DNA of 64,000 bases from Paramacrobiotus metropolitanus (lineage: Eukaryota > Tardigrada > Eutardigrada > Parachela > Macrobiotidae), in NCBI RefSeq assembly GCF_019649055.1, contig NW_026570500.1, positions 31,619 through 95,618 on the forward strand, given 5' to 3'. Made by a program: the position numbers and the translations under genes. The notes below the pieces were generated by a model. It ran no database searches. It saw only the letters and a program-made list of their open reading frames with translations, and was not told the origin of the DNA. Of this stretch, positions 33,863 through 59,579 are shown one piece after another. How positions within the stretch are numbered: position 1 is the first letter of the stretch; each line of letters begins with the position of its first letter.

Positions 33863-33879
33863 CGACCCATGTGGGGTCG
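33863..33879. other. hairpin, loop ATGTG
   Basis: Stem CGACCC/GGGTCG, 5-nt loop. Same loop as 34834-34848 with a different stem. Confidence 0.75.
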
Positions 33880-34591
33880 CCGGTACGCGTCCTCTTCCGG
33901 CGGGAGTCCGGTGTCTGTTGACCGTCCCATCCTTCACTTCCAGAAACATGAGAGGCAAGCAACTCACGGCCGCAAATCTGGAAGCCGCTCGGGGTTCGTT
34001 GTTGGACCGGTATTGCTTCTGTTGGCCTGGCATCTTGCTTCTGTTGGCTCGCGGAGAAAGTAAAAGAAAAGTAATGACGGTTAAACAGCGCGAAGTAAAA
34101 AGTAATAAAATTTAATCACAATTCCAGTGAGCAAAAAGTAAATACAAAACAGATCTGGTTAGAGATTCTAAGTAAAATACAATTCCGTTTGTTAGAAAAT
34201 GTATAAAAATACTAAAAAGAGATCTGTCCGGGGGGCTTATTCCGACTAGGATGACGTCCACGGGTCTTGAGTTTCCACGGGGTCTCCTGTCTAGATGCAG
34301 TCCGGTGTGTTGGGTCCGGGGCGTCGGTTCCCGGGTTACCTAACGTAACCGGTAAATCCGTCCGAGATCGGGTAAGTACGGCTGACACTTACGTCCGACT
34401 CGTTTTCATCCGTTCCGGAGAGAGAGGCACTGTCGCTGTTGCGAATGCCGAAGCATCCTCTCTAATTAAGGGGGATAGACCAAGGTCATCGGACCAAGGT
34501 CGGCCTACCGGTAAGTTAGCCGGCGGCAAGGGAGTTCGGCTAAGTCCCGAATTCCAGAAAGTCAGGTCGGACAAAACCGTACTTGTGTCAT

Positions 34592-34608
34592 GCGACTTCT
34601 GTGGTCGC
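34592..34608. other. hairpin, loop TTCTGTG
   Basis: Stem GCGAC/GTCGC. Compared with the common CCGAC/GTCGG stem, both outer bases are exchanged together. Confidence 0.8.
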
Positions 34609-34773
34609 CAAGTGGTAATGCCGATGGAATGTGGTCGGTTAAAACCGTTAAATCTGCTACCACGAGCCTGGGTGTGACTTCCGATACGAACTGGCTCGAA
34701 GGTCCGGTCGGAATTTCTTGTTCCTCCATCCAACGGTGGTTTATCCGACCTTCTGTCGGTTGAGGATGGATAT

Positions 34774-34788
34774 CCGACCTGAGGTCGG
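34774..34788. other. hairpin CCGACCT-G-AGGTCGG
   Basis: Seven-base arms around one G. The same unit or close variants recur at about 34953, 35006, 35138, 35291, 35319 and 35458. Confidence 0.8.
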
Positions 34789-34833
34789 TGATAACGCACC
34801 TCCATGGTCGACCTCGGTAACTCGTGTTATTTA

Positions 34834-34848
34834 GGCCCATGTGGGGCC
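34834..34848. other. hairpin, loop ATGTG
   Basis: Stem GGCCC/GGGCC, 5-nt loop. Confidence 0.75.
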
Positions 34849-35104
34849 AAACAAGTCCCGTTAGGTCGAATTCGTCCATTCCGAGGTCGTTTCCAGTTCC
34901 ATTCTTCAGTTTAGTCGTCCTTCACCGACCTGTTATCGGTGACTCCTGATGTCCGACCTGAGGTCAGGTATGATGTTATCCAACCCGTGGTCGGTGGTAA
35001 TGTTATACGACCCGAGGTCGGTTACCACGTGACTGGTCCGTTCAAAGGTCGTATCTCGGCTGATCCGCTGGTGTTCCAAGCGAATCAAGCGATCCGGCGT
35101 TCCT

Positions 35105-35125
35105 AACCGACTTCTGTGGTCGGTT
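35105..35125. other. hairpin, loop TTCTGTG
   Basis: Seven-pair stem AACCGAC/GTCGGTT. Confidence 0.85.
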
Positions 35126-35379
35126 GGACCGGTTCTCCGACCTGAGGTCGGTAATAATGTTATCCGACTGGAGGTCGGTTACTCCAAGTCCCAGGTCGAT
35201 TGAGGTCGAATTCTTACATCCGGAAGTCATTTTCCGTGAATCCTTACGATGGCGTTTCCATCCACCGACCTGTTGTCGGTTACTTCTCATGTCCGACCCG
35301 AGGTCGGTTACAACGTTATCCGACCTGAGGTCGGTGATTCCATAATTCCGTGTTCAACCGAAGTGAGTTACGGTATGCA

Positions 35380-35395
35380 GGCTCAAAGTGGAGCC
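35380..35395. other. hairpin, loop AAAGTG
   Basis: Stem GGCTC/GAGCC. The loop ends GTG like the main family. Confidence 0.65.
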
Positions 35396-35751
35396 ATACA
35401 AATCCGTTTCGGTGGAATCATCCTCATAACCGACCTGTTGTCGGTTATTCCACTTCATCCGACCTGAGGTTGGACATAGTGTTATCCAACCCGAGGTCGG
35501 TGATTCTTCGTCCAGGTCGGTTCCGTATGTCAGGAGGTCGGTTTAAGCCTCTGGGCACTCATCCGATCTCTGCGAGGTTTGTTTGGAGCGATGGTCACCG
35601 GTGAATCGGTTGGTTTATCCGATGTCCTCCGGGGGAGACTGCGGTTGGACTCCAGGTACAGGTTCCTGGTTGAGAGCCTGTAGGTCCGGGTTCAAACGGA
35701 GAATCCGTCCAGACTAAAATCGTAGTCGGGTGTCGCGGTTTGCGGTCACCA

Positions 35752-35774
35752 TTACCGACTTCTGTGGTCAGTAA
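35752..35774. other. hairpin, loop TTCTGTG, one mismatch
   Basis: Arms TTACCGAC and GTCAGTAA pair at seven of eight positions. Confidence 0.7.
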
Positions 35775-35869: not shown

Positions 35870-35890
35870 AATCGACTTCTGTGGTCGATT
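35870..35890. other. hairpin, loop TTCTGTG
   Basis: Seven-pair stem AATCGAC/GTCGATT; differs from 35105-35125 by a compensated C-G to T-A change. Confidence 0.85.
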
Positions 35891-36057: not shown

Positions 36058-36127
36058 AGCGGAATCCTCGCTGGTTTGTACTCCGGAGTCCGGTTGCCGG
36101 AGTGTTGATGTCGTAGATCGTAATTAA

Positions 36128-36146
36128 CCAACACGGTCTGCGTTGG
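36128..36146. other. hairpin, loop ACGGTCTGC
   Basis: Stem CCAAC/GTTGG. Confidence 0.75.
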
Positions 36147-36196
36147 GTGCGCTCCTTCTATACCAGGTGTTCTTCGGATGTAAGGTTGAAACTTCA

Positions 36197-36213
36197 CCGA
36201 CTTCTGTGGTCGG
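36197..36213. other. hairpin, loop TTCTGTG
   Basis: Stem CCGAC/GTCGG, the most common form. Confidence 0.8.
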
Positions 36214-36306
36214 CTAAGTTATCCGAGTCGTGATGAGGAAAGGTCCAAATTCTACCTTAAAATTGGCTGACTCCCGTGGTCAACGAAGGTAGTAGGTCAT
36301 GGTTCT

Positions 36307-36325
36307 GTGACACGGTCTGCGTCAC
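36307..36325. other. hairpin, loop ACGGTCTGC
   Basis: Stem GTGAC/GTCAC, the same loop as 36128-36146 with a different but complementary stem. Confidence 0.75.
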
Positions 36326-36335
36326 TGCCTTTAGT

Positions 36336-36374
36336 TACCTCGGGAATGGTCAACTTCCGTGGTTGACTGAGGTA
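36336..36374. other. two-tier hairpin, loop TTCCGTG
   Basis: Inner stem GTCAAC/GTTGAC and outer stem TACCTC/GAGGTA separated by a small internal bulge. Confidence 0.8.
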
Positions 36375-36606
36375 GCGAGACATGGTTGAGGTCGCGGTCT
36401 GCGAAGTTAGGTCTCTGGGCGGGAATCCGGTTCTTCGTTCCTGCCTTCGGTTAATTCAGTGCGTCATGTCGTAACAGGTCGGTTTTAACTTCTGTGGTCA
36501 ATTCCGAACCATGTGACATTGCGGGGCGATGAGGATACCACTGTCTGCGGTGATGAAAGTTACTGGTCGGTTACCCGGTCCCAAAGTCGGCCACGGGTGC
36601 CAGGCG

Positions 36607-36648
36607 AACATGGTGTCGAGAACGTGACAACGTTTTCGACACCATGTT
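36607..36648. other. long hairpin, copy B
   Basis: Nineteen-pair stem with one G-T pair and a GACA loop; arms start AACATGG and end CCATGTT. Confidence 0.85.
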
Positions 36649-36935
36649 AGCGTAATCCTCTCGGTCTGTTCTCCAGAGTCGGTTAGCCGGAGTAATCTTC
36701 TTCGGTAGCAGAACGTGGTTCACGATATGCTATGTTAGCAAGCCGGGGCGTCTGTTGGCTCCGGTGTAGCAGATATGGTTCTGATCTCGTTCGCGATCTG
36801 CTAATGCCATGCTGGGGAACTGAGGTCAGTTGCCCAGTTCTTTCCAGGGGATTCCTTGGAGGACGTAACGGTACGGTGAAAGAACCGAACTACCCAGGTC
36901 TGACCACACGTTTCCGGGTCCGACCAAAGAATCCG

Positions 36936-36954
36936 GCCAACTTATGTGGTTGGC
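36936..36954. other. hairpin, loop TTATGTG
   Basis: Stem GCCAAC/GTTGGC. Confidence 0.85.
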
Positions 36955-37160
36955 GCTTCTGGCTTATTCGTGGTTCACGTCTGCTTTAGGTCCATAAAAG
37001 AAAAGTATCCGTTCCATGTTTTCCATGTCGTTTCTCGACGTGGCTGTTTCTCAGCCGGGCAGGTTCTCCGCCAGGTCGGTTCTCGACTTCGCTGTTTCTC
37101 AGCTCGATGTCCCTTCCTTACTGTTGAAGTGGGACCACAGGTTCCTTATGTGGGAACCTG

Positions 37161-39304
37161 TTATCCCAGGGGGACTGAGATCGGCGGGTCTCCGCCGAAG
37201 TAATCTTCCTCGTCATCGTCAGATTTAGGTGGTGGTCGACCAAGGCGCCGGAAGACGTCAGGCTTACATGTTGCTGGTGGTTGCCCATCTGGTTGTGGGG
37301 TGTCTTCCTGGCCAGGTTGTTCCGCCCGCGCCTTCTTGGCTTTCTGGACCTTCCTACGGAGCTTATGCGCGTTAGGTACTGCGCCGGGTGCCAAGTCGTC
37401 CGACATCCCTTCTCCATATGGTCTAGAGGTGAATCCGCTAGGTAACGCTTTTCTTCGCGGTACCACTTCACGAATTCGGCCGCATCGTCGTCTGGATCTT
37501 TGAAGTCCTTGCGGAAGGCGTATCTGGCCGCGTGCCGTTCCTGTATGTAGAGGAGGTCGCGTAACCAAACTGCCAAGATGATACTTCGCATGGGTGAACC
37601 AAGTTGTACGACGATCGTATCCAGTTCTGGTGGGATATGTGCCGTGCGACGTGCTCCCCACAGCGTGTAGTGGCAAAAGTAATTGCCTAGCCTTGCTGCG
37701 AAGACGTACCGCAAAATGGTTGCATTTCGATCTTCTGGTCCCGGTTCTTCTTCCGGCAAGTACTGCAATAAGTCCAGGGCCGCTCGAGCCGCTGCGATAA
37801 TGAAGGCCGGGTGGGCGTCGGTGATGACGAACTGAGCCACACTCTCCAGTTGATCGCGTGAGTACTCTTGAGGTCCGAGCTGACTTAAGCTCGTCCTCTC
37901 CGGTGTGGACAGAGGTACGTCCAACAGCGCCGGGTCATGCACCGAAGGCAAAGCGTTTGCTCGATTAATCGGGTGTTCCACATTAGGGTGGTCGTTCATG
38001 TTGAACTCGCCCATCCAGTTGTTAAGTTGGAATCTGGTTTGGAATCCGGATCGGATGAGGAACTGACGCAGGTTTTCTACCATCCGCCAAATGTGTGGTC
38101 GGTGTCGTTCCTCGTATCCCAGGGTGTTCATGATATAATTCGTCCTTTCGGTCGGATGTGGCATGACGACCTCAACTCCCTGTCGTCGGGCGTTGTCATA
38201 GCGAGGGTCGTCCTGGCTCGGAACTTGCACTGTTGGCATCGAGGCCATCTGATTTGCCACATCCACATCCATTTCTTCGGGTTTGTCTGCCGGTTCCGCC
38301 ATGTGGGCTTCCGGTTCTGGTTGGTGTTCAGGTGGGACGAAATTCCGTTTCGACTTACTAGTTGAGTCGACGACCAGTCCCATGCTCGTCTTCTCCGGAC
38401 TTGACCGCTTACCAGGTGAAGGTCGGGTTGCTTCACTATTGCCGTGTCCGGCAGAGGCTCGTCGTTCCTCGATTCGGTGTCGAGCGTCGTGTCCGAGCCT
38501 ATGTCGAAGGTCGTGTCCGGCCAATGGTTTGGCAGGTCGGCGCTGCTGTTGAGTCGACGACGCGGCAACTGGTTGTGCCGAGGATCCAGGTTGAGGAATC
38601 TCTAAGGGAACAGCTGGCTGGGTTTGTGTAACCACTGGAACGACCTTCTGTGGGATCGTTGCCATCTGCTCCGCCGTTGCAGGGTAGAGAGTGACCATTT
38701 TCATGGTTCCGTCGTCCTGTCGCATCATCATTTGGATTGATGCGGATTGAAGAGGTCGGTGAATGTCTCCGACTATCACTTCTCTCACGTCATGAAGCAC
38801 CTGTTCCGACTCTGAGCGGCCTTGTGTGGGCTGCTGTAGGTGAACAGTAATTTGTGGCTCATGCTTCGTTGGTGGTGGATGGACCTTCATGGTGGCAATT
38901 CTTTCGTTGACTGCCTTAAGTTTCGCACGGTCCTCCTCCTGGCGCCGCAGGTCCTGTTGCTGACGGTATTCCAGAAGCCGATGAGTCAAGGTCGGTGGCA
39001 CTGTGTTAGTCCATCCGGGGTCGGAAGCGCGGTTGCGTTGGATTTCCGACAAGTGATCCTGTTCGTAGGCCCGTAACTGGTTAATTAGACGTTCGCTGCG
39101 GGCTAAACGTCGGTATGCGCTAATGTTCCCAGCGACGACGTTTATGTACAACGCCGCTGCTTGCATCGCGTCACGACGTCCGGTTTGTGGGGTATGTTCA
39201 TCCGAGAAGGAAATGATGCAGTCCGCGCATGGGAGTCTGTTGCCCTGCGGAGTTGAATTCTCTCTGCAATGTCGGCAGTCCGCCGTGTACGCCTCCGTTC
39301 GCGG
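37161..39304 (-). CDS. ORF3 of the giant element: zinc-motif protein with helical C-terminal domain
   Basis: About 715 codons. The frame opens exactly at a splice acceptor (exon from 39304) and begins PRTEAYTADCRHCRENS; the first ATG is at 39166. Residues 8-30 hold two CxxC pairs (CRHC, then CADC about 12 residues later), a likely zinc site. Next come a coiled coil, a Pro/Gln-rich disordered stretch with DLRHRLGHDARHRIEERR, an acidic PADKPEEMDVDV, and a helical domain of about 230 residues (HIWRMVENLRQFLIRSGF, FIIAAARAALDLLQYLPEEE, SIILAVWLRDLLYIQERHAA). Near 37410 a frameshift is needed; the shifted frame continues with KKARAEQPGQEDTPQPDG and an acidic end at 37161. No membrane anchor or signal peptide, so not an envelope. 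Function unknown. Confidence 0.7.
39266..39277 (-). other. first CxxC of the ORF3 zinc motif
   Basis: Encodes CRHC. The partner CADC is at 39218-39229. A similar CRDC occurs near the N-terminus of the pol ORF. Confidence 0.65.
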
Positions 39305-39325
39305 CTGTTAAAAGAAAAATTAGAC
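39305..39325 (-). promoter_or_regulatory. splice acceptor before ORF3
   Basis: On the minus strand, CTAAT is followed by TTTTTCTTTTAACAG, a textbook branch point, pyrimidine tract and AG. The ORF3 frame is open from the first base after AG. This implies ORF3 is expressed from a spliced subgenomic RNA. Confidence 0.65.
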
Positions 39326-39410
39326 GATCCGTTTCTCGGATTCGTTAGCCTATATATGTTACATCCTATGATTACAACGGTCGGGCCGGGTCGGTTCTCG
39401 AGCTGGTCCA

Positions 39411-39429
39411 AGGCACTTATGTGGTGCCT
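39411..39429. other. hairpin, loop TTATGTG
   Basis: Stem AGGCAC/GTGCCT, in the ORF2-ORF3 spacer. Confidence 0.85.
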
Positions 39430-39482
39430 AATGAGGTAGGTCGGGACATTCTGTTGTGTCCGAGGGGAGGTCGGTGATCACA

Positions 39483-39499
39483 AGTACTTATGTGGTACT
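39483..39499. other. hairpin, loop TTATGTG
   Basis: Stem AGTAC/GTACT, 54 nt from the previous hairpin. Confidence 0.85.
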
Positions 39500-39547
39500 C
39501 ATGAAGGAGGTCGATTCTACGACTCCTCCGACGTATTCCATGTCTCC

Positions 39548-42500
39548 TCATCCGTTAGTCGATTCCACCCGGTTCACCTGGAGAGAGTCAGTTGACTCAT
39601 TCTGTTGCTCCGAGGTCGGTGGATGCTTCGGTAAGTGTCCGTGTCGGTGTGTTGATGGGTTAAGGGCTTCGTATCGTTCTCCTTCCCGAGTCTGGTTGAT
39701 GCCAAATCTCTTTTGGAAGAATCCCTTGTTGAGAACGAAGTCCAAGTCGTCGCCCAGCATGTACTTTTCGCCTCCTTTCACTCTGTTCGTGGGCTTGTAC
39801 TTCGGGTCGACTAGCTGGGGTTTTCTGGCTTCCCATTCGAATTCGAACCTAGCTACCAGCTGATGTAGAACTTCGCCGCGGGTCAGTCCTTCCGGGTGCC
39901 ACGACATCTCCATACACGCTTCTATGGCATGTACCCAACCTTCGTAGGTGGTCGGCGCCGGATCTCGTTTCTCCGGTGGGAACTCGTAATACATCCGCTT
40001 GCTGCTGGTGTATGTCCGTATAATTTTACTTTCATTGTACCCAAGGTTACAGTACCGGTATACGTTGCTCTGGCTTAGTTGCCTCCAACCTCCACCGATG
40101 TCACCGATCTTATGGTGCCTGAGGAGCTGGAATGCGATCTTCGGTGTCGCAAACTTCGGTCCGCAGGTCGCCAGGGCCTTCAAGGCCGCGAAGGTGTACA
40201 TCCATCCCGGGTCGTATTCCGAGACGCGTGGGGGTAGAGTATGAGCACGTTTAATGGCCACCGTCGGGTGTTTGACGTTTACCTTCGGTAGGCTAGGAAT
40301 CTGTAACGGTAGGACTTCCTGGGTATCCTCGTTCCATTCCTGGAGGAGTTGATTCGGGTCGGAATCTGGTGTTAACCGTACTTGTTGACGGTAATTCTGA
40401 GGAACGTAGACGTCACCGCTATCTTCTTCCATCGGCTCGTCAGCTTCGTTGCTGTCGTTGGCCGGTGGGTCATTCTGATTATCAGAAATTTCCGGTTCAC
40501 CCTGCTGTTGTGGTGCCGAAGCCGGTGGAGGTTGATCGTCATCGTCATTATCGTCATCCTCCGACCCTTCCGGTGTTTGATAGGTGTCATCATCGTCCTC
40601 ATCTTCTTCTTCTTCGTCTTCGTCCTCTTCGTCTGAGGGCGTTTTCTCTTTGGTCTTCGCCGACTTCTTCGTTGATTTCGCCGGTTTAGGTTGACTCTTC
40701 CGTGGAGTCTTACCTTCCGGGGCCGGTGAAGTTTCCATGGGTGAGGTCGGTGGAAGAGATTGCGTGTCTTTCGCCGCAAAACGTCCGGTTGTGGTCCGAC
40801 CTGGCTTAGTTGCGCTTGCTCTTGCTGGTGCTGAGGCGGTGTTAACATATGTTACCGGTTCGAACGGTGCCCGAGGTCGGTTGGTTGGTAGTCGTTTCTG
40901 TGACGACATACCTGACGCTCGTGCAATGTTCAACATATCCGCCGCCTCGCCGGATGGTTGTTCATCCGATTCGCTGTACTCCTCGACAATCATTTCGGTA
41001 CCTTCGGGCGAGGACTGTACGTTGATGAAGGACATCCGGAGTTTGAAATCGCGTCGTTGCTGCTCCGGTATGAACCGAGGTACTGTGTACCGAAGTGGTA
41101 AATCGCGTTCCGCGTTGGTCGTTTGGAGGGAAAACTCTGCCACCATCGTTGCAATGACAGGTCTTAGAAGATCCATTATGACGTCGATATTGCCCTGGCT
41201 GTTCTCGTACATAACGTTGTATATACGGGCAATATGTAGTAAGGAGGATCCGCGAGGGTTTCTTGCGTATCCGATGCACCTGACGATTCTCGTTGGCGGG
41301 TCGTCCAATGCTCTGGCAGCGGCACTTTTGAGCTTTTGAATGATATCCGGTGCGATTAACTCGGCGGTCCGTCCCCATTGTCGGTGGACCGCTACGGCTA
41401 ATCCGAAGTCCAAGGCCCATGCCACTATAGCCATCATAAGTTTCTGTGTGAGCCAAGGTGAGGTCCGACCTACGATCCTTAAGTTGGTCGAGAGGTCGCG
41501 CACCAATGACTGGTACACATCTCTGCCTTCGTTTCGGGCGTTCCTAACGCTTCGGACTATTTCGACGTGAAGTCGAACCGTATGAAATCCGACTGGTCGG
41601 TCGCCAGGTTGAGCGTCGGGTAGCCGCTGACGTACGTCATCAGGGGCTGGCCATTCAGAAGCGTCAGTGTCTTCTTCGTGACTCCATTCTTCGTTCCGAT
41701 CGCCTTTAAATCCTTCGTATGGATCGGCTTCTCCATGGTCGGAGATCTCATCGTCGGGTTCTGAGGGTTTCTCTGATTCATCGTCCGAGTCTTTCTTGGA
41801 CGTAGAAGGTTTCGGTTGCTTGGGTGGTGGCTTAGGCGTCGGCTTAGACCTTTCGTGTGGTCTTTCGGCCTCCGTTTTGGTCACCGCAGTACCTGCTCTG
41901 GCGATCAGTTCTCGCATCCGCTGTTTGGCTGCGTCGTAGTCAAATTCCTCCTTGGCGTTCCCCTTTTTGTCCGGCTTCTGTGGGCCAGCGTCTGAGGTAT
42001 CAAGGTCGTCGGAGGGCTTATGCCGTTTGGCCGGGTTAGGTTTCGGCGTCTTAATTGAAAGGTCCGACTTTGGTTTAGTCGGTTCCTTTGGAGGTTGTTT
42101 GGTCGCCTCCTTTTCAGCTTCCTTTCTGGCTTCTTTCTTAGCCTTTTTCTTCTCTCTCCGTGACAACTTAGCCGAGTTAGCCGAGTTGATCACCTTTGAA
42201 TCCAGTAATTCGTCCTGGATCTGCACGGAAGGTTCCCTTACTGGTTGAGGGTTCTTCATCTTGACCACCAATTGACGTGTTGTCGTGGAGGTCGACTTCG
42301 GGTCCGGTGCAAAGAGTTTCGGTCGAGTCGTAGCGGCCTGTTGTTGTGCCGCAGGTCGGACCTTCTCCGCCCGGAATCGTTCTCCCATTCTTTTCATGAC
42401 CTCAGCCATCCTTTGCGTAAGTCGTTCATGTTCCTTACGAACCGCGTCGGTGTTCCCAACGAGGCTAGCACGGCGTGACTTGAGTGAGTTCCAGAGTTCT

Positions 42501-43267: not shown

Positions 43268-43270
43268 CGC

Positions 43271-46663: not shown

Positions 46664-46773
46664 TGTAGCACGTAGCAACGACTGTTATGTTTATGTATTG
46701 TCAGCTGATGCAGTTCGATATGCTGAGTCAGTATGCGATAGCGAGCTCGCCAATAAACTAGTAATTCACGACA
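46664..46773 (+). repeat. left LTR, 110 bp
   Basis: Starts TGTAGCACGTAGC and ends ATTCACGACA. Identical to the right LTR. No obvious TATA; AATAAA occurs inside (CCAATAAACTAG). Confidence 0.95.
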
Positions 46774-46791
46774 AACTGGCGTGAAGGTAGT
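46774..46791 (+). other. candidate primer binding site
   Basis: AACTGGCGTGAAGG follows the LTR directly, with the TGG expected opposite a tRNA CCA end. The tRNA was not identified. Confidence 0.5.
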
Positions 46792-46833
46792 ACTAAAAAC
46801 TCTTACGAATTTATCACGCGCTGATTCACGACG

Positions 46834-48140: not shown

Positions 48141-50993
48141 GCACGGCCAGTGTTCTGCAAACCCGTACAGTGCCTTTCGCGTTCAGAGAGGCGGTCGAGA
48201 AGGACCTGGAGCGTTTGGTGGAGCGCGGCATACTCACTCCAGTCGAACACGCCGATTGGGCGGCGCCCATTGTGGGGACGCTGAAGAGGGCTGGAGATGT
48301 GCGAACGTGTGCCGATCTAAGCACTGGTCTGAACGACTCGTTAGACGTTCAGAAGTATCCGCTCCCAACGCCTGACGAATTATTCGCCAAGTTAAACGGC
48401 GGAGAGAAATTCAGTACCCTGGATCTCGCCGAGGCGTATGCCCAAGTGGAACTGGACGACGACAGTAAACAGCTTGTGGTGATTAATACACACAAGGGAC
48501 TGTTTCGGTATAACCGACTGCCGTTCGGCGTCGCCAGTGGGCCCAGCATATTCCAGCAAATCATGGAGCAGATTCTCCATGGTTGCGAAGGCGTGGCCAT
48601 ATACCTGGACGATATCATCGTCACCGGCGCCACGGATGAAGAGCACCTGCGAAACCTCGAAAAGGTCATGGCGCGGTTGACAGAACACGGACTGACGCTG
48701 AAGCGCAGCAAGTGTCATTTCATGCAGCTGTCTGTGGAGTATTTGGGCTTCATCGTGGACAGTCGTGGCCGCCACATTTCGAGAAATCGTGTGAAGGCGT
48801 TGCTGGATATGGGTCCGCCGAAGAACGTAAGTGAACTGCGCGCATTTCTCGGCATGGTCAACCATTATGCCAAATTCGTAAAGAATCTGTCAGCGAAGTG
48901 CCATGTATTCCACAACCTCCTGAAAGCTGACGTGACCTGGGCGTGGTCAAAACAATGCGAAGAGCAGTTTGCGGAGCTGAAGCAGGAGATTGCCCGAGCC
49001 ACGTTCTTGGTGCATTACGACCCGGCGATGCCGCTGATTGTAGCAGCCGACGCATCGCAGTACGGCATTGGAGCGGTGCTGTGTCATCGGTTCCCGGACG
49101 GTACGGAAAGACCGATTGCGCACGCATCCGGAGCCTTAACGCCGCCGAGACCAGATATGGGCAGATTGAGAAGGAAGCTCGCCCTGGTCTTCGGGTGCAA
49201 GAAATTCCACCAGTATATTGCTGGGAGAATTCACCCTGCTGACGGACCACAAGCCGCTGCTGAGCGTGTTTGGAGGCCGAAAAGGGATACCGGTGGTGAC
49301 CGCGAACCGCCTTCAGCGCTGGGCGTTGATGCTGATGGCGTACAGTTTTGCCATCGAGTAGGCGAACAGAAGAGTTTGGCCAGGCGGACGGGTTAAGCAG
49401 ATTACCACTGCATTCCACGGAGCTGACCGAGTTGGGTAACCTGGGAATGGACAGCATAGTCAATGCTGTGCACACGGAGAACGCGGGACGGTTACCAGTG
49501 TCGGTAGAAACTGTGGCAAAGGAGACTTGCGCCGATGCGGAGCTCAGCATCGTTCTGGATTACGTCCAGACTGGATGGCCGAGCGTCGTGAGAGAAGGGC
49601 TGCGACCGTATAAGCGGCTAGAAAGTGAACTGGTGACAGTGAACGGGTGTCTGTGCTGGGGCACCCGGACGGTGATTCCGAAGAAGCGCAAAGCGCAGAT
49701 ACTGTCGTACCTGCATGAAAGCCACCTTGGAGCGGCAAAGATGAAGGGTGAAGCCCGCGGGTACTGTTGGTGGCCGTCCATGGACCGGGACGTGGAGCGG
49801 GTGTCCAAAGCGTGCCGTATATGCACTGAACGTGCTGGAGAAACGGCGAAGGTCCCGCTGTCACAGTGGCCAGTGCCCGTCGGACCATGGAGACGACTCC
49901 ATGTTGACTTCGCCGGACCGTTCCATGGCACGATGTTGTTCGTCGTGGTCGACGGCATGTCCAAGTGGCCGGAAGTGGTCTCGATGCGACATGCAACCAC
50001 GGACGCAGTGATTGAGGCTTTGCTGGACATGTTCAGCCACTACGGGCCATGTACTGAGATAGTGTCAGACAACGGCACACAGTTCACGTCCGAGCAGTTC
50101 AGCGAATTCTGCCAGCAATACGGCATTAGGCATTTTCGGACGCCACCGGGACATCCCCAATCGAATGGCCAAGCGGAACGCTACGTCCAGACGGTGAAGG
50201 ACGGCGTCTCCAAGCTCATGGCCGACCAAAAGCGCCTGCCGGTTGCGCTGAGGGAGTTCCTCTGGCGCTACCGTAACGCGCCTCACGCAACGACTGGGAA
50301 AACGCCAGCCGAGCTGTTTCTGGGTCGGAAGATGCGCTCGACGCTGGATCTGCTAGTCCCTGTGCTGCTGACCACGGCAGAAAAGAACAGGGAGCGCCAC
50401 CGCCGAAACTTCGACCAGCACACAAGGAAGAAAGACTTCCGGTTGGGTGATTTGGTCCTGGTGCGAGACTATCGCCCAAGCCGTGCAGTGGACTGGATCA
50501 GTGGCAAGCTGATTAAGCGCGAAAGCCGGCTGATTTGGGAGGTGCAAGTGAGCGATCTGCTGTGGAGGCGACATGCAAACCAAATACGCCCTCGATTTTG
50601 GTTGGAGACGCCGGAACACACGGAAGCAGATACCGGGAATGGTCAAACGGCCGTGGAGACATCGGTAACATTTCCTCCGACGAAAGTAATGGAGAAGACG
50701 GTCTCGCCTGCCAGAGCGCGCACGCCGACGTCACCAACGCAGCCGCAATCGGAGGTTAAACCACAGCCCGAGGTGATGGTACAGCCGGAAGTGAAGCCAA
50801 CTTTCCGCCCATCACACAGGAACTGACGCTGACGGCACCAGTCGCGCCGCCAAAGGTACAGCCGACAGTTCTACCATCCGGTAAGGTGAAACCACCGAAA
50901 GCTGCGAAGCCTGCACAGCCACCGGAGGAATTACGCAGAACTGGAAGAACGAACGCCGGAAAAGCCCCAAAACTGTTGATAAATGAAATGTAA
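48140..50993 (+). pseudogene. Pol of the nested element: RT, RNase H, integrase, broken by frameshifts
   Basis: RT shows FSTLDLAEAYAQVELDDDS, RLPFGVASGPSIFQQ and an intact YLDD (48602-48613). RNase H has IVAADASQYGIGAVL and, across an out-of-frame stretch at about 49135-49180, KKFHQYI, then LLTDHKPLLSVFGGRKG in a third frame. Integrase has an HHCC zinc site (HESHLGAA...CRICTERAG), catalytic residues in VDFAGPF, SDNGTQF and GQAERYVQ, and a GLDLVLV-type C-terminal barrel (FRLGDLVLVRDYR). A last shift at about 50825 extends the Pro/Lys-rich tail to TAA near 50993. At least five indels are needed to read it through. Confidence 0.88.
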
Positions 50994-51038
50994 TATTTCT
51001 TTTTTATTTTGTTGATGGTTTTATGAGTGGGCAACCCA

Positions 51039-51048
51039 CTGGGGGAGA
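51039..51048 (+). other. polypurine tract of the nested element
   Basis: CTGGGGGAGA directly precedes the right LTR, the position and composition of the plus-strand primer. Confidence 0.8.
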
Positions 51049-51158
51049 TGTAGCACGTAGCAACGACTGTTATGTTTATGTATTGTCAGCTGATGCAGTT
51101 CGATATGCTGAGTCAGTATGCGATAGCGAGCTCGCCAATAAACTAGTAATTCACGACA
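51049..51158 (+). repeat. right LTR, 110 bp
   Basis: Identical to 46664-46773 as read; followed by AGTCC. Confidence 0.95.
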
Positions 51159-51163
51159 AGTCC
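51159..51163 (+). other. target-site duplication AGTCC, right copy
   Basis: Matches 46659-46663. Confidence 0.95.
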
Positions 51164-53177
51164 ATTATGTGTTCATCCATGGTCCATACCTGGCGAAGTC
51201 GTCTGGCCTCGTTCAGCGTGGAAGCGATGGCCACAGGGTCGGGTATCCGTAGTTGTTCGGATCGCCCTTCTGACGCTTCTAAGTTTTGGGAATACTGGGG
51301 TACTGGTCCATTAACTGCCGAAGGTGAGCTATCTTCTGGTGGAAGGTCGCTAAGGGCAGTTGTTCCTTGGGGATGCCGTTCTTGATCACGTGTTGGATCT
51401 GGGCATTGGTTTTCTTAATATCTTGGGAGTCCCTTCCCAGTCGGGTTGACTCGTGCAGTTCGAGCCTCCGATCTTGTCCGACCGCCTCCATTCGGGTCAT
51501 CATTATGTCTGATACCCGCTGGAGGTACTGTAGTTCCTGTATAACCGGATCTACTACCGCCTCCTGTTGGGCCGGTGGGTTCGGTGCTGGTTGAGGTTGC
51601 ACGTTCGGCATATTGGGCACCGTAGCTGGTGAGGTCGGACTCGGCTGAACCGGTTGTATCTGCTGAGTCGGGGGGACGATTGAGAGTTCCGGAGGTGGTG
51701 TTCCCTCTTTCTCGATTTGTTCGTCCATATCCCTCATGTAGTGGTCCCAACCAATTAGTTGGTCCATGACCTCTTTCCATGCGGCATGGTTGTCGGGTTG
51801 TTCAGTAGACAGCTTATGTAGCGTCTGTCTGAGTTCAACCGTTTCGTTCCACGCATCTTCTCGTTGTTGTCGGAGTTCCTCCAACTTTGATCGCTTCAGC
51901 TCAGCGTCTCTCCGCTTTCGGCGTTCCATGGCCTCCGCGAAGGATGTCCGACTACCAGGCTGTGTGGTAGACGAGGTCGGTTCCTGTGGTGGAGGCATCG
52001 ACGTAACGACTTGCGTGGTCGTTGTCGATGACGGTTGAGCTGTGGAGGCGGACGTCGGTTGGGCCGCTCGTTGGTTCCGAATCGCGAATATATTCGTGTT
52101 GTCGTTAATGAAGGTCTGGAGTCCGGAAATTCGATCCAGGATTTCCACCCTTCTGTCCAGGTAACCAGGAGTTGTCGGTGTAATTGTCGACAACTGGTGC
52201 GTTAAGTCGCGCGCCTGGTCACGAGCGATTTGGTCGAGTTTCCGTAACTCTCCCGTTGGTATCGACCTACTTTGCGTAGAGGTCGGTGTGGGAAGTTCAG
52301 TCGGTGGTGGCGGAGGAGGTCGCGGCGGTACGACTTGTGTGGTCGTCGCCAGTACAGTCCCATGTGGGGCCTGTCCTCCGTACTGACTCAAGTGCTGGTT
52401 AAGCGACTGAATCAAGTACTGTGCCACTTGTGGATTCCCCCATGGAATCGGTTGTCCCGGGAGTCCGATGTGAGTCGGTGAGACTGGTCCCGTAAGCGGT
52501 AAAGGTGGTACCACTCCCGCGATACTGAATGTTCCAAGTCGGGGAGGTGATAGGGTATTGTTTGGCCCTATCGCGCTGAACGTTCCGAATCGCGTTGGTG
52601 ACGTCGGAGTTATCGTTCCCATTCCTCCCGACACTGGCACGTATCGAGTTACCGGTCCAGCCCATGTCGGCTGGCTCGACGCCAAAGTGGGCGTTGTGAA
52701 AATCGGCGGTGGTACGTTCACCATTCCAGGCACTAACGTGGGCACTGGATAGGTCGGACCAACCATTGTTGTTGGTGCCGACCATCGGTAAGGTTGCGCT
52801 TGACCGAGTGGGTCGCCCGCAGTTACCGTGGCGGATTGGTTCCCATTCGCGCCATAGTTGACGAGAAGTCCGCCAGTCGTAAATCCAGTGTTCGGTGGCA
52901 GATGCTGCGGTGGTACTGGTCGATATTGTGGGCTTCGTTCTGGCCCGACCGTTAAACCTGCTAAGACATTAGCTGTATCGTTAGCATGCGGGTTATGTAC
53001 CTGCGGCAGCGGTGTGTTCGTTGCCGACCGCGAATTATCCGATCGCGAAGTTGAGCGATGGTGAGACGAGTATGGTTGCGAATAAGGGTGCGACCGGTTC
53101 GAGCCGCTACCACTGCGTCCGCTGTTGGATCCGCTAGAAGGTGGGTCGTTGCGTTGTCGGCCCGACATTGTTGTCTG
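51159..53177 (-). CDS. ORF2 of the giant element, N-terminal part
   Basis: The exon opens at a splice acceptor (53177) and the first ATG is at 53166-53168 (MSGRQRNDPPSSGS). Residues 1-290 are Ser/Pro/Thr/Gly-rich and disordered (NRSHPYSQPYSSHHRSTSR; PPRPPPPPPTELPTPTS). From about residue 300 helical modules begin: ARDLTHQLSTITPTTPGYLD, TVELRQTLHKLSTEQPDNHA and LQRVSDIMMTRMEAVGQDRR, the same style as in the middle part. The frame stops at 51279, but the next frame continues without a stop to the insertion point at 51159 (containing LNEARRLRQVWTMDEHIMDL), so one indel is needed. Two family hairpins lie inside the coding sequence. Confidence 0.72.
52005..52023. other. hairpin inside ORF2, loop TTGCGTG
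   Basis: Stem AACGAC/GTCGTT; encodes TTTQVV on the sense strand. Confidence 0.8.
52330..52346. other. hairpin inside ORF2, loop TTGTGTG
   Basis: Stem ACGAC/GTCGT; also encodes TTTQVV. Confidence 0.75.
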
Positions 53178-53202
53178 CTGTTAAGGAGAGGAATACGGCG
53201 CG
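53178..53202 (-). promoter_or_regulatory. splice acceptor before ORF2
   Basis: On the minus strand CCGTATTCCTCTCCTTAACAG ends here, a pyrimidine-rich tract plus AG, nine nt before the ORF2 ATG. Parallel to the acceptor before ORF3. Confidence 0.6.
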
Positions 53203-53347: not shown

Positions 53348-56300
53348 CTATGACTGAGTCTGTTCTGTTGTGACTGCTTGTTTAGGTGTCTTTGATTTTG
53401 TTGTTTTGACTGGTTTCTCCGAGTCCGCTCGTACTTCCGAAATTCTATCGAGGATCTCCTTGTGAGCTTCGTCTTCAGCGACTTCAGTTTCCACCAGCAC
53501 TTGTTGTGCTGTCAGCTTGGGTTTCTTAACCGTTCCAATTTTCCGTTTCGGCTTGTGTGGTCCGACCTCCTGGTCGGTCACTTCGACTTCCGTGGTCGGT
53601 GCCGCCGGGTCGGTTGATTTAACCGTCCTTTTCTTGTAAGTCCGTTTTGGCTTCGTCGGTGCGACTGCCGGGTCGGCTACTTCGACTTCTGTGGTCGGTG
53701 CCGCCTGGTCGGTCGTCTTATTCGACTTCTTCTTCCTTGCCGGTTTAGTCACCGACCTCTTGGATTCTTCCGTAGGTTGGTTGGATGGCTGAACTGGTTC
53801 TTCGGACTTGTTGTCCGACTCCTTAGGCTTCTCCGAGGTCGGTTCAGCTGGTTCATCCGGTATCACATTTTGCTTCTGCAGTTCCTGCAGGGCTGGTGTC
53901 TCGAAGTCCATCGGCGGTTTCTTCCGAGGTCGACCTCGACCTCTTTTCTTAACCGTTACTTCGGGTTGGTCTGTTAAGTCCGATTTCTCCGACTGCTCGA
54001 TGGTTACTTCAGGCTTTTTAGTTGACTTACTGGTCGCCTTCCCTTCTGTGGGGTCGGTTCCCAGGTCATTATCCGGCTTCTTCTGACCCGATGACCGAGT
54101 TACTGGTCGACGTGCGTCGGCTGGGAAGTGTTTCACTCGGTCGACGGCTACGGTGTCTTCACGTCCGTCCTCACTTCGGAGTAGCAGGTTGTTTGGGCCA
54201 ACGTAACTGATGACCGTCCACTCTCCGTCGTATCGTTCCATCCTGGCGGGGTCCTTAGTTGGGAATTCCACCGTTACCTTATCCCGTGGTTTGAAGGTCG
54301 GTGACGACTTCTTCTTATTGTAAATTTCAGCGCTCCGTTCGAAGGCTTCATCAATGTTGATGCGCGCAATTTCGTGAGCCATCTGAAGTCGTTCTTTAAT
54401 CCGCCTAATGTAGTGCTCCTTATCCGTATACTGTTCCGGTGCATTCGTCCCGGCCACTAAGTCCTGTGGCATGGTCATTTCCCGACCATACAGCATATGT
54501 TAAGGTGAAAATTTGGTCGAGGCATGGACTGCTCTGTTCATCCCGCAGACGACATATGGTAAGGCTCTGTGCCAACGGTGTCCGTCCTTTATGTTGCAGA
54601 ACTTTCGTATTCCGTCCCATATCGTCTGCATTTGCCGTTCGACTTGTCCTTGACCTTCCGGATGATAGGCTGTTCCAAGCGTATGTTGGATGCCGAAAAT
54701 CCTCGCAACTTTAGCGAATGTTTTCGCCGTAAAGTGCGTCCCTCGGTCCGAGTGGATGAAGGTCGGCATTCCGTACTTCAGCAGGACATCTTCCACAAAG
54801 AACTTTTAAAATTCCTTCGCGGTGTTTGTTTTGGTTGCCCGGGCGATGGTGAACTTCTTCAGCTGGTCGGTTACCACTGCGATGTATTGGTATCCTTTCG
54901 TCCGCGTTCGAGGTAAAGGTCCCTTGAAGTCCGCGTAGATGCGATACCAAGCTTCACCAACTTCCATCTTTTGGAGTTTACCCGGTGGGGGACGTCGGAC
55001 CTTGTTGGCCAAAATGCACTGTCGGCATTTCCGAATGTATTCAAACACATCGGTTGACATCCGTTCCCAGTAGTAGCGCAACTTCAATGCTTCTACGGTT
55101 TTATCGCGTCCGAAGTGGTTTCCGGTTTTCCCATCGTGTAGCGAACGTATGATGTTGGTTCGCATGAAGAGAGGTACGACGAAGCATCGTTCCAGCTTGT
55201 CGTTTATTACCTTCAATCGATACAGGAGTCCTTGAGCCATCTGGTAGTGCTCGGTGTACTTCGACTTGTAGTCGAGTTTATCCAGGTTCTCCAGTTCATC
55301 GATAATTTTCCGTAAGTGCGGGTCTCGCAGCTGTGCTTTGCGCAATTCCGCGTTTGTTGACGCGGGCGGTACGAGTGTCTCGCCATGTGGGCTCAACTCG
55401 TCCGGCTCTTCCGCTGTGTTTGCGGTCCGGATGGTCGGTTCCTGTGTGTTGAGGTCCGGCGTCTTCGGAGCTGGTACGTTGACGACCCGTACTTCTGTGG
55501 TACTTAGGTCATCCCAGTCCGAAATGACGTTACATCCGGGAAGAGGTGGTGGAAGTGGAATCTCCGGTGGTTCCTTCTCATCCCTCTTCTTTTTCCTGTA
55601 AGCGTTGTCCTTTAGACGTCGTAAGGTCCGTATGGTACAGACTTTAATTTCGTCCTTAAAGTCTTCAAAGTTAGGCACCTGATCCAACTCTTCGTGTGGA
55701 TCTTTGTCATCACTCCGCTCGAGTGGCCACCTCGACAAGGCGTCCGCATTGTCACAGAAAACTCCTGGCTTATACTTGATGGTTATGTCCCGTCCTTGCA
55801 AAGCCAGTGCCCATCGTGTTAGTCGAGGGTTGATGCCAGGTCGGTTTGACTCGCATCTGAGCAGGTTCTGCAGTGCTCGATGGTCCGTTTGTACGGTGAA
55901 AGGTCCATGGTCGATGTAGTGCTTAAATTTTTGCACTGCCCATACCACGGCCAAACATTCCCATTCTGTAACTCCATAGTTGAGTTCAGGTCCGTGTAAG
56001 ACTCTGCTGGCATAGGCGATCGGATGTCCGTCCTGGGATAACACCGCGCCAAGTCCGGCTCCGCTTGCGTCACATTCGATGACGGTCTCTTTCGTCGGGT
56101 CGAACTTCGCCAGTACCGGCGCTTCTGTTAACGCCTTCTTGATTTCGTTGAACTCAGCCGTGTGGGCCTCCGTCCAATCCTTTTTGATGTTCTGGTCCTT
56201 CCGTAGGAGCTCGTACATCTTCGATGTCTTCTGGGCGTATCCTCGGATGAACTTACGGTAGTAGTTAGCCAGACCCAGGAACGACCTCAGTTGGCGTTCC

Positions 56301-59300
56301 GTCTTCGGGTAGTCATGTTGAGCTATGGCTGCGACTTTTTCATCGTCGGTTTGAACTCCGTCTTTGCTGAGGACGTGTCCGAGGAACAGCATTTTATCCG
56401 TTCCGACCTCGCATTTGGAGGGCTTAATGGTGAATCCGGCATCTCTGAGGCATTCGAGGGTCGCTCGGAAAGCCTCGACGAAATCTTCGAATGTTTTACC
56501 GAAGAAGATGATGTCGTCGATGTATGCGAACACGCCTTTCTTCCGGGCTGATGCCGTGATCTTATCCATATGCATCTGGAAGGTCGCTGGTCCGTTGCAG
56601 ACTCCAAATGGCATACGGTTAAATCTCCACATTCCCTCCGGTGTTACGAAGGTTGTGTAGTCCTTTGAGTTTTCATCCATGGGAATTTGCCAGAATCCGG
56701 ACTGACAGTCTACTTTACCGTAGTACTCCATTCCGGCGCACTGGTCCAGTAACTCGTCCGGGTTCGGTAACGGGTAATTATTCTTCTTTGTTACTGCATT
56801 CAACTTTATGTAGTTGATGCAGAAACGAGTTCCAACCGTGCCGTCTCCGTTCCGTTTCGCGGCTAAGACGACGGGGAAGCTCCATGCAGCCGATGAAGGT
56901 TCGATGACTCCTTGGTCGAGCATCTCCTGTACATGTTTTTGGATGAATTCCCGTCCTTTCCAGCTTGTTCTGGTAGGGTTCATCTTAATCGGCTGTGCAC
57001 CTTGGACGTCGATGGTGTGTGTTACACCTTTGACATCTCCGTATGGTTTCTTCGAGGTCGGGAAGACGGTTCGGTATTCCCAGGCAACTGCCTTGAGTTG
57101 GGCAAGTTGCTCATCGGTTAAGTTCTTACCGAAGTTCATGGAGTCGATGATTCTTCGTCGCTCCTCCTGGGATTCCGCGTCTTCTTCCTCTACTTGAGCC
57201 GAGCGTATTCTTGCTTCTTCGATTCTCTGGTCGTCCGTCATCATTTGGAACGGTTCGACTCGACCCATGGGTGCACCTTTTCGTAAGGTGACCTCGCGGT
57301 GGGTGTGGTTGGCTACCATGATGGTAAATCGTCTCCCATCATGTTTGGTTACGCCATCCATCATTTCGACTCCGTCTTTTTGGGGGTCGGATCCACCAAG
57401 GTACATGAGTTTCTGTCCGGTGGCTACTGCGACATCCATTACGACGTGTACTTGGGTTATCGCCCGAGGTAGGAGTTTCACTTTCCGTTGAGCTCTGACT
57501 CCTGTAGCCTCGAAAATTTCGAATTTCGGCGATGGCTTTGGTTCGGGCTTGGGTGGCCAAGTCTTGGCAATCCCAAGTGGAAGTTCCCATTCGACGTACT
57601 GGTTGTCGATGTCCGGTTCGAACATGTCGCTGTATTGCATATGGCCGAGTTTTATGCCTTTCTTCAAGATCCTTGGTTGGTGTGTCATGTTCTGGATGTT
57701 TATCCAGGCCGCGCCTATCTGAGGTCGGATCTCAATCTTAGCTTCTATCGGTCGGATAGGTCGGTGCTTCCGCCGTAAAGTGTAGAAGTAGATGGGTCTC
57801 ATCGGGTCCATTGGTTTGGCCGTCCGTACCTTGATAGAGCACGTTGAATATGGTGGAAGAGAGACTCGCTCGCTATTGAAGACCACCTGTCGGTCTAGCG
57901 GCTTCGAGTCGATGAACGGGTCCAATGCCAAATGGTGAACTTGTGGGTGCTTGTTGCCCAAGTTCAGCTCCGTAATCGAGTTAACTTTTGCAATCCGGAC
58001 CTTCTGTGGGCGCGGTTGCTCCGACTTCTGTTGGTCAGTTAAGTTAACCGAAGTCGGTTGTTCGGTTGACAACTGCTGGGTTACTATGGTTGGAGGTCGG
58101 AGGTCGTATTCCTCTGGTTGGCCTCCTCCAAATTCCCGTAAAATTTGAAGTTGTTCAAGTTCCGCTTGTTGTTCGACATCGACTGGCTTTTCCTGTCCGG
58201 TTTGTTCCGGGGGAGGGTCGACTATGAATTCAGTGAGGATGATGGACCGCAAGGCTTTTGTCAGCCGGACGTCATAGGTCGGTTCTTCGTCCTCCTCGGA
58301 TGAGTCATCCGAGTCATCCTTCCGGGGTTTATCCGACCTGCAGTTTCGTACTGACAGGTCGAATTCTTCGTCATCATCCTCTTCCTCGGATTCTTCCGAA
58401 GGTTGGTTATCGGAATCTGTGTCCGGTGAATCGCTCGAACTTTGTACGTCCGAGGCGTCCGAGTTATATTCCTCGGATTCTTGTTCATCCTCAGGGTTGA
58501 CGTCAGGTGTGTTACCATGTCCGACTTCTGTGGTCGGTGCACCCTGGTCGGCCGTTTCCTTCGGTTGGGTCGGTCGACTCTCTTCGTCCTGTTTCTCCAG
58601 GTCGGATGGCTGTGAGCTTATGTTGCTCAGCCATTGGTTAACTACCGACTTGGTCTTCCGGCTTGAGTTTACCTTCCGTTCTGGTTGCGGAGGGGCTGGT
58701 GACGACGGTCTGCCGTCAATCCAAGTCAAGTCATGGTGCGTCTTCAGCGTCCGGACGACTCCATCAATATTATCGTTGCAAATTATGCAGCGATCAGGTC
58801 GGTCAATTTCGCCAATTTGCGTGTGCTCAGTTGGCTTCTTCAGGTCGTTGACGAATTTGACTTCCTTCGGAAAGTGTTCCATGATTGGCGGTAACGGGTC
58901 GGGGATCTTCCTTGTTATTGAGGTGTCCTCGCCGTACCGTTTCCAAAACGCAGTTGTAGTCGATTCTCCGTACAACTGTACTTGTCGCATATAACTGAAG
59001 AGTGCTCCGCCTAGTTCTTGGCAGGGTATCTCCAGAGGGCGTGGTACTGGAAGTCCGTATTCCATGTACTGCCGGTGAATTGGGACTCGTTCGTCTTCCC
59101 ATTCCCAAGCTTCATCGTCGATGTCTTCGGCGAGAGCTAATACAGGTTCGCATGTCCGTTGTGCTTCCTGTATCTGGTCCGTAGTCACCGCTCCGTTCTG
59201 TTGGAGAGTGGCCATCATCTCCAACGTCCGTCGGTCGAGAAAGTGTTGTGTTCCCGTAAACCAAGTCCGGTACTTTTGTTGGACTTCTAAGATGGCATCC

Positions 59301-59575: not shown

Positions 59576-59579
59576 CCTC

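Follow-up and report, generated by a model that had tools for sequence, protein, structure and literature searches.

How Gag selects and compacts retroelement RNA of great length is still unsettled, dispersed packaging signals having been argued mainly for small single-stranded RNA (ssRNA) viruses. The question is raised by a stretch of 64,000 nucleotides (nt) from the tardigrade Paramacrobiotus metropolitanus, hereafter the window, with which contig C280 ends. Positions 33336–64000 of the window are occupied by a giant Gypsy-type long terminal repeat (LTR) retrotransposon, coded on the minus strand, and short hairpins with a near-constant loop recur along it. An original prediction, made from this sequence, had claimed a hairpin family with a fixed loop and covarying stems, and had proposed selection on, or copying of, the fold. 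Is this family real, is it selected, and what could read it? The analysis, for which the genome of 169.8 Mb in 533 contigs was searched, answers the first two points plainly: a sense-strand hairpin family exists and is selected, in at least two diverged subfamilies of the giant retrotransposon. The comparison with shuffled sequence supports the selection that had been proposed, and the changes between copies are suggestive of it.

A sense-strand hairpin family

In the sense direction, the hairpins have the form stem-NACRNAA-stem, with RNA loops such as CACAGAA, CACAUAA or AACGGAA. Their stems count 4–11 pairs, and the sites are spread over untranslated regions (UTRs) and open reading frames (ORFs). 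All nine sites named in the original prediction are present, and the positions it gave are the exact starts of the stems. Other parts of its description had to be adjusted. The loops it listed (TTCTGTG and its variants) are indeed present on the plus strand, but the coding strand is the minus strand, so that the sense loop is NACRNAA. The closing pair of the family is not in every case AC/GT, as seen at 37137–37161 (ACAGGTTCC/GGAACCTGT) and 59294–59318 (GGCATCCGC/GCGGATGCC). Hairpins do lie in the predicted interval 33863..58537, but the array continues to at least 62645.

On the plus strand of the window, 16 matches to the strict pattern ACTTNNGTGGT were counted, and none on the minus strand; 14 of these 16 sites reach stems of at least four Watson–Crick pairs, the exceptions being 35758 (stem 3) and 36488 (stem 2). 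When any closing pair was allowed around the loop TTNYGTK (stem of at least 4), 28 hairpins were found on the plus strand of the giant element and none on the minus strand, compared with a mean of 0.23 and a maximum of 2 in 300 exact dinucleotide shuffles. The same search gave 0 and 0 in a small Gypsy element nested at 46664–51159, which serves as an internal control, and 2 on the plus and 0 on the minus strand of the host flank. A second, collinear copy of the giant element, about 31.5 kb long with LTRs of about 450 bp, lies at C3:2994126-3025646. For NACRNAA loops with stems of at least 5, this C3 copy contains 29 sense and 0 antisense hairpins (100 shuffles: mean 0.16, maximum 2) and the window copy 24 and 0 (100 shuffles: mean 0.11, maximum 1), with 0/0 in the nested Gypsy and 0/0 in 33 kb of host flank. 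A chance origin was rejected on these figures; shuffled sequence, which the original prediction had named as a check, does not reproduce the hairpins. With a pyrimidine at loop position 4 (NACYNAA, same stem threshold), only 1 hairpin is left in C3 and 2 in the window. No NACRNAA hairpin with such a stem was found in the loose-match stretches outside the described copies (L019–L021).

The loop also emerges when no motif is imposed. When patterns of four letters in 7-nt loops were ranked, the top one was.AC..AA, seen 30 times against 0.21 in 60 shuffles. Hairpins with 7-nt loops are in general excess in the C3 copy (105 against 27 in shuffles), and 29 of the 105 carry the motif. A weaker class with the 5-nt loop NACRN was also seen in this copy (13 against 1.34 in shuffles, with 1 antisense).

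A covariance model was built from 34 hairpins, 28 from the C3 copy and 6 from the window, and searched unfiltered. The first 39 matches in the window all lie on the minus strand inside the element, and the first match outside has an E-value of 1.4; this search is a description more than a test, because 6 of the 34 hairpins come from the window and most of the others are C3 counterparts. Across the 34 hairpins, which were chosen for complementary stems and are thus 100% paired by construction, 3 or 4 Watson–Crick types are seen at every one of the five stem pairs. The predicted mean stem pair probability of motif hairpins (stem of at least 4) is 0.92 in the window, 0.86 in C3 and 0.94 in a further copy on contig C58, compared with 0.60, 0.54 and 0.56, respectively, for other 7-nt-loop hairpins (stem of at least 5).

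Further inverted repeats were observed in the element. In the 3' UTR, direct repeats about 66 nt long (34770–35510) are rich in CCGACCTCAGGTCGG and CCGACAACAGGTCGG palindromes with 5-nt NACRN loops, and are perhaps a short-loop version of the NACRNAA signal. By eye, larger 3' UTR modules also appear to be repeated at 36110–36780 on the minus strand (for example CCAAC GCAGACCGT GTTGG and GTGAC GCAGACCGT GTCAC), together with long hairpins ending CATGG...CCATG. Likewise noticed by eye, in the 5' part of the C3 copy (L009:5510-5562), was a palindrome whose arms, each about 23 bases long, are separated by two bases.

Changes in loops and stems between copies

The copies compared include seven further copy regions (L022–L028) and six 5' regions (L029–L034). 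Over 53 site groups and 156 aligned rows, divergence amounts to 11.6% in the flanks and 6.9% in the stems; along loop positions 1–7 it is 8.3, 1.3, 0.6, 15.4, 18.7, 4.5 and 7.7%. The loop is thus conserved at positions 2, 3 and 6, and free at position 5. In the stems, 824 pairs are unchanged, 93 are changed on one side (40 to G.U, 53 unpaired) and 17 on both sides, which yielded 15 Watson–Crick pairs, 1 G.U and 1 unpaired. Two Watson–Crick types were found in eleven pair columns, one of which reads T-A in L033, T.G in C3 and C-G in L034. Compensatory changes, for which the original prediction had proposed to look in other copies, are thus seen, but the outer control pairs, which are Watson–Crick by chance, form a small set and behave in a stem-like manner (306 unchanged, 74 single changes, and 7 double changes of which 5 are Watson–Crick, against 15/17 in the stems), so that this comparison is not decisive alone; some of these control pairs could belong to the outer ends of the very stems that were compared.

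A second subfamily, B (pol about 80% identical), is represented on contig C1 by an element (L037, L036, L035, L013) with 64–88% alike DNA in the aligned parts, and with extra-ORF stretches (L005 and L013) that are 43–62% identical in protein. Another B copy, with long open frames, lies at C58:548-578 kb. Subfamily B keeps sense-only hairpins at shared sites and has new ones (stem of at least 5). At this threshold, the C1 copy contains 10 NACRNAA and 12 NACRNAG hairpins, with 0 antisense (means of 0.08 and 0.12 in 60 shuffles), and the C58 copy 8 and 12 (means of 0.11 and 0.05 in 100 shuffles); one antisense NACRNAG match was found in C58, at stem 4.

In loops starting with C, the subfamilies differ in the last base. 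In a tally of NACRNAN loops with stems of at least 4, in which rows are partly the same sites, subfamily A loops starting with C have A7 in 25 (C3), 20 (window) and 63 (L022–L028, L033, L034) cases and G7 in 0, 0 and 2, whereas subfamily B loops starting with C have G7 in 21 (C1), 16 (L029–L032) and 18 (C58) cases and A7 in 0, 0 and 1. The N1/N7 totals are thus 108 C.A and 2 C-G in A, and 1 C.A and 55 C-G in B. Loops starting with A in C58 have A7 in 8 of 13 cases and C7 in 5. L029–L032 were placed in B by DNA distance (71–81% in most aligned parts), L030 also by the 78% identity of pol just downstream, and L033 is the most distant piece placed in A. The diverged piece L015, assigned to neither A nor B, contributes 3 motif hairpins, each of which has A7. 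The core can be refined to a pentaloop ACRNA, flanked by a subfamily-specific N1/N7 pair, on the sense strand.

Site by site comparison between A and B involved 26 site queries (window and C3 counted separately) and 52 rows, which are not independent. Loop positions 1–7 changed in 13, 1, 1, 3, 35, 4 and 33 of the 52 rows, and 27 of the 33 changes at position 7 are from A to G. In the stems, 216 pairs are unchanged, 27 are doubly changed to Watson–Crick, and single changes gave 13 G.U and 19 unpaired. From C3 to C58, 22 of 41 hairpins have an alignment, 16 of them gapless and 6 with a gap inside the hairpin. At the gapless sites, C.A became C-G in 7 of 10 cases, and loop positions 2 and 3 changed at none of the 16. 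Their stem pairs comprise 70 unchanged, 6 double changes, all Watson–Crick, and single changes giving 4 G.U and 3 unpaired; the double changes are partly at the same sites as in the other comparisons. Divergence is 21.8% in the flanks and 11.4% in the stems. Outer control pairs gave 1 Watson–Crick pair among 3 double changes, and 1 among 4 in reverse. In this reverse direction, from C58 to C3, 15 of 28 hairpins are gapless, double changes gave 4 Watson–Crick pairs and 1 that is not, and loop position 2 differs at 2 of the 15 sites and position 3 at 1. Examples of the changes are GCCAAC CACATAA GTTGGC against GCTGAC CACAAAG GTCAGC, and AGGTTCC CACATAA GGAACCT against AGGTTTC CACAAAG GAAACCT. 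In the subfamily B copy L038–L040, 5-nt loops AGAA. are enriched as well (8 against 0.12 in shuffles), possibly as a second class of hairpins.

The carrier element and its hairpin sites

The Ty3/Gypsy-type identity of the carrier rests on its two LTRs and on matches to RVT_1, RNase H, H2C2, rve and protease. Its 3' LTR (33336–33787, minus strand, approximate edges) matches both ends of the C3 copy, with 98.7% identity to the 5' one. The body (33788–64000, minus strand) is collinear with the C3 copy at 88–98%, and its 5' end lies beyond the end of the contig, which stops at the window end. The window includes the 3' UTR and the 3' LTR beside pol and the extra ORFs. The pol ORF (54806–59593), with reverse transcriptase, RNase H and integrase H2C2, is followed by an ORF with a C-terminal part of pol (53348–54499), whose likeness to P0001 was judged by eye, both on the minus strand. 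Four large extra ORFs are found in this single LTR retrotransposon, within 37118–46537 and 51279–53180: they lie at 51279–53180, 43271–46537, 39548–43270 and 37118–39307, all on the minus strand and all without a Pfam match, and for 43271–46402 no homologue was found at E<=0.001 among 7996 candidates scored. No Pfam family matched gag at its cut-off. A Gag devoid of zinc knuckle, as suggested by the Pfam scan, proved wrong: one CCHC motif is present in the gag of the window, C3 and C58 copies. The nested small Gypsy (46664–51159, plus strand) matches PNMA, carries two CCHC motifs and ends in terminal repeats of 111 bases that are identical to each other (46664–46774 and 51049–51159).

The giant element is repeated in the genome. 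The 15-mer CGACCACAGAAGTCG has 210 exact occurrences, compared with 0 for its reversed control, a count that shows copy number and not structure, because the control is expected near 0. A protein search retrieved 30 pol matches in two identity bands, 93–100% and 75–81%, which correspond to at least 29 pol-bearing copies among the scored candidates, two matches being parts of one copy; both numbers are lower bounds. A third, more diverged Gypsy family (P0004 type), with 18 scored genome candidates, is seen at C58:772359-780416, with 68% identity to the pol of the giant element over the aligned part. A rearranged relative, at C5:531601-540704 and C76:581910-591000 (99.8% identical over 9.1 kb), has gag 5' hairpin-rich sequence beside the 3' UTR, with no pol match except 30 bases at the pol start in the DNA comparison of the part read, which does not cover the 5' end. 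It had been considered as a demonstration that ends rich in hairpins are enough for mobility, and nothing is claimed from it.

The individual sites, all on the minus strand and given as sense sequences, begin with GCGAC CACAGAA GTCGC (34592–34608), AACCGAC CACAGAA GTCGGTT (35105–35125), AATCGAC CACAGAA GTCGATT (35870–35890) and CCGAC CACAGAA GTCGG (36197–36213). Then come GTCAAC CACGGAA GTTGAC (36349–36367), which is GTCGAC CACAGAG GTCGAC in L027, GCCAAC CACATAA GTTGGC (36936–36954), which is GCTGAC CACAAAG GTCAGC in subfamily B, and ACAGGTTCC CACATAA GGAACCTGT (37137–37161), to which corresponds AGGTTTC CACAAAG GAAACCT in B. AGGCAC CACATAA GTGCCT (39411–39429) and AGTAC CACATAA GTACT (39483–39499) follow. 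Within ORFs are GACTC CACGGAA GAGTC (40693–40709), GTCGT CACAGAA ACGAC (40891–40907), CTCT CACATAA AGAG (43571–43585), GGAT CACACAA ATCC (44146–44160; GGAT CACAAAG ATCC in B), GGAACT AACGTAA AGTTCC (44341–44359), CTCAT TACAGAA ATGAG (44430–44446; loop CACAGAA in C3 and CACAGAG in B), CGAGCT TACATAA AGCTCG (46291–46309), AACGAC CACGCAA GTCGTT (52005–52023), GAGT TACGGAA ACTC (52236–52250), ACGAC CACACAA GTCGT (52330–52346; ACGAC CACACAG GTCGT in B), CGAC CACGGAA GTCG (53584–53598) and CGAC CACAGAA GTCG (53683–53697). The pol ORF contains GTAC CACAGAA GTAC (55489–55503; GTAC CACAGAG GTAC in B), CACCT TACGAAA AGGTG (57274–57290; kept in B, with one G.U in C58), CCGAC CACAGAA GTCGG (58521–58537; loop CACAAAG in B), TGAGC AACATAA GCTCA (58613–58629) and GGCATCCGC AACGGAA GCGGATGCC (59294–59318; kept in B). 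The last sites are CTGGA CACGCAA TCCAG (59894–59910), CGCC AACAGAA GGCG (59995–60009), TGGCTTC AACAGAA GAAGCCA (60783–60803), TGCTGGT AACGGAA ACCAGCA (61161–61181), GAATCC AACACAA GGATTC (61567–61585), GACC AACAGAA GGTC (62631–62645) and AATATATCGAT GACTTAA ATCGATATATT (63209–63237), the loop of which deviates at position 4 and the membership of which is doubtful.

In the window and C58 copies, 39 motif hairpins, some at shared sites, lie within long ORFs and are distributed over phases 0, 1 and 2 as 7, 10 and 22. The peptides over them include AYIKL, SSQKR, PTTEV, ELRKL and SATEA, and PTTEV/TTTQV peptides recur in the ORFs of the element. Where a hairpin lies in phase 2, position 4 of the loop falls on the third, silent base of a Thr codon and yet is nearly always a purine, and position 5, with which the following codon opens, is nevertheless the freest base. 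A protein-coding repeat was rejected as the source of the family, given the three phases and the further sites in UTRs.

Possible readers and known systems

What could read such hairpins? The reader and the role are what we infer from these patterns, and action at the RNA level seems likelier than action on complementary DNA (cDNA). A single-stranded nucleic acid would be read, because duplex DNA would not force one orientation. The loop switch points to a changed reader protein, because a single loop base switched at dispersed sites with different surroundings, which is hard to obtain through gene conversion; a reader coded by the element would explain why two subfamilies of one genome differ in their loops. 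Gag, with its zinc knuckle, is the natural candidate, hence the proposal of packaging. The chances appear evenly balanced that the hairpins are dispersed cis-acting recognition signals on the genomic sense RNA, read by Gag for multivalent selection, compaction and packaging of an RNA of about 31 kb. In such a mechanism, a stem of free sequence would present the pentaloop A-C-R-N-A, with N1/N7 mostly C.A in A and C-G in B. One trans-acting protein, most probably the element's own Gag with its one CCHC zinc knuckle, would read A2, C3, R4 and A6 on many hairpins of a single RNA, and the most likely purpose would be multivalent selection, compaction and packaging, after the manner of dispersed viral packaging signals. 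A more specific version is proposed tentatively, with somewhat less than an even chance: an RNA assembly code, in which 30–40 interchangeable hairpins over about 31 kb are read by the element's own Gag, sister subfamilies having co-evolved the loop dialects CACRNAA and CACRNAG. If so, these dialects would let each Gag pick its own RNA, and a turnover of sites at a kept number would mean selection on valency, not on position.

Several observations weigh against this interpretation. Many rows are copies of the same sites, and the outer control (5/7 Watson–Crick) means that the stem comparison alone is no proof of compensation. Between window and C3, which are 4.1% divergent, no double change was seen; counted in the forward direction, 3 pairs became G.U and 3 were broken. 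Beside the 27 Watson–Crick double changes between A and B, 10 doubly changed stem pairs are unpaired, and the outer control pairs of C3 and C58, both ways together, give 2 Watson–Crick pairs among 7 double changes. Single mismatches, in a test meant for the RNA level, are evenly divided between G.U and A.C (13 against 12), and between C3 and C58 they number 4 against 2 one way and 0 against 2 in reverse; decay of dead copies could explain the even ratio. The pairing of the 34 modelled hairpins, as mentioned, is by construction. The alignment of only 22 of the 41 C3 hairpins in C58, 6 of them gapped, and the complete pairing at 10 of the 16 gapless sites indicate that hairpin positions turn over. 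The phase 2 excess (22/39) indicates that Thr-rich coding repeats such as PTTEV/TTTQV contribute. Compensation between copies is thus suggestive, not decisive; the standing of the packaging proposal is unchanged by this, because the argument relies above all on the number of hairpins, their strand, the constraint on the loop and the switch in it.

The same RNA recognition hairpins might instead serve nuclear export, localisation, stability or translation of a long multi-ORF RNA, through a host or an element reader. This is possible but rather unlikely in our view. The hairpins do extend over the entire RNA, including the ORFs located 3' of pol, for which splicing or export of RNAs may be required, export of genomic RNA by an element-coded factor is reported for the Cer1 LTR retrotransposon (PMC10309623), and the loop switch is also compatible with an element-coded reader of such a role; a host reader, however, should be common to both subfamilies of one genome, yet their C-type loops differ. 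A signal at the DNA level, where single-stranded cDNA hairpins or duplex-bound palindromes would guide reverse transcription, recombination or integration, is improbable. The equal G.U and A.C mismatches would follow from an absence of selection for RNA pairing, or from the decay of dead copies; but the hairpins keep the sense direction over about 31 kb, with the stem-4 match of C58 as the sole antisense case, a duplex-binding factor needs no orientation, and the constraint falls on loop bases A2, C3 and A6 and not on the dyad.

Template switching by reverse transcriptase could perfect quasi-palindromes, so that stems seem compensated without selection. The general excess of 7-nt-loop hairpins in C3 and the palindrome with arms of about 23 bases fit with such a by-product, which nevertheless predicts neither a conserved loop, as found in the motif-free ranking and across subfamilies, nor strand bias or a loop switch, and is very improbable. 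Least probable of all is an origin either in repeats that encode PTTEVG-like peptides or in a palindromic micro-element that spread by copying within the retroelement. Recurrent PTTEV/TTTQV peptides and the excess of phase 2 speak for the former; the UTR sites, the use of three phases, the free first codon base at position 5 and the purine at the silent position 4 (29 and 24 NACRNAA against 1 and 2 NACYNAA) speak against it. The micro-element, which the original prediction had also considered, was discarded, as was any insert resembling a miniature inverted-repeat transposable element: the stems have no common sequence, with 3 or 4 Watson–Crick types per pair, and hairpins persist at sites common to both subfamilies. 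An RNA signal or protein-binding loop, which it had also suggested, remains the leading class of role.

The element offers a natural experiment: each copy supplies dozens of internal replicates, and a single genome provides two loop dialects and the pol-bearing copies counted above. Short RNAs and a single protein domain would be enough to put the idea of packaging through multiple sites to the test, and the signature of fixed loop, free stem and sense strand only can be searched for in other giant elements. Regarding novelty, no Rfam family matched the 64 kb window at its gathering score, and our literature searches found neither a repeated fixed-loop hairpin family in any LTR retrotransposon nor a paper combining P. 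metropolitanus and retrotransposons; these negatives are the whole basis for calling the family new.

Partial likenesses are found in several known systems. Coronavirus SL5 carries one loop sequence repeated on different stems. It is also discussed in connection with packaging, in an RNA of about 30 kb, but its UUYCGU loops are few, lie in one 5' domain and differ in sequence and length from those of the giant element. Phage boxB hairpins have GNRA-like pentaloops read by protein, one looped-out base of P22 boxB contacting the N peptide (PMC12550061). The giant element likewise has a pentaloop with one free base (N5), but this starts with A and not G, its C3 is fixed, and no N-like protein is known. 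The G-N-R(-N)-A loop sequence itself is not found, the first two pentaloop bases being A and C; that A-C-R-(N)-A resembles a GNRA-like pentaloop with a looped-out base is a structural guess. As for the carrier, Burro of planarians and Ogre of plants are also Gypsy-type elements far above 10 kb with extra ORFs, according to passages of PMC6431247. The internal region of the giant element, of about 30.6 kb, is longer than the 'up to 25 kb' stated for Burro in those passages, which name ribonucleoprotein packaging capacity as one limit on retrotransposon length and use 'hairpin' in connection with Helitrons. Assembly through multiple dispersed stem-loops that share a recognition motif is described for ssRNA viruses and hepatitis B virus (PMC6281560; further papers on dispersed packaging signals are PMC3593212, PMC7793301 and PMC7612645). 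Unlike these systems, the carrier here is an LTR retrotransposon of about 31 kb with a concerted loop switch between subfamilies, in which Gag would take the coat-type binding part; like them, it displays many stem-loops with a short common motif along its genomic RNA.

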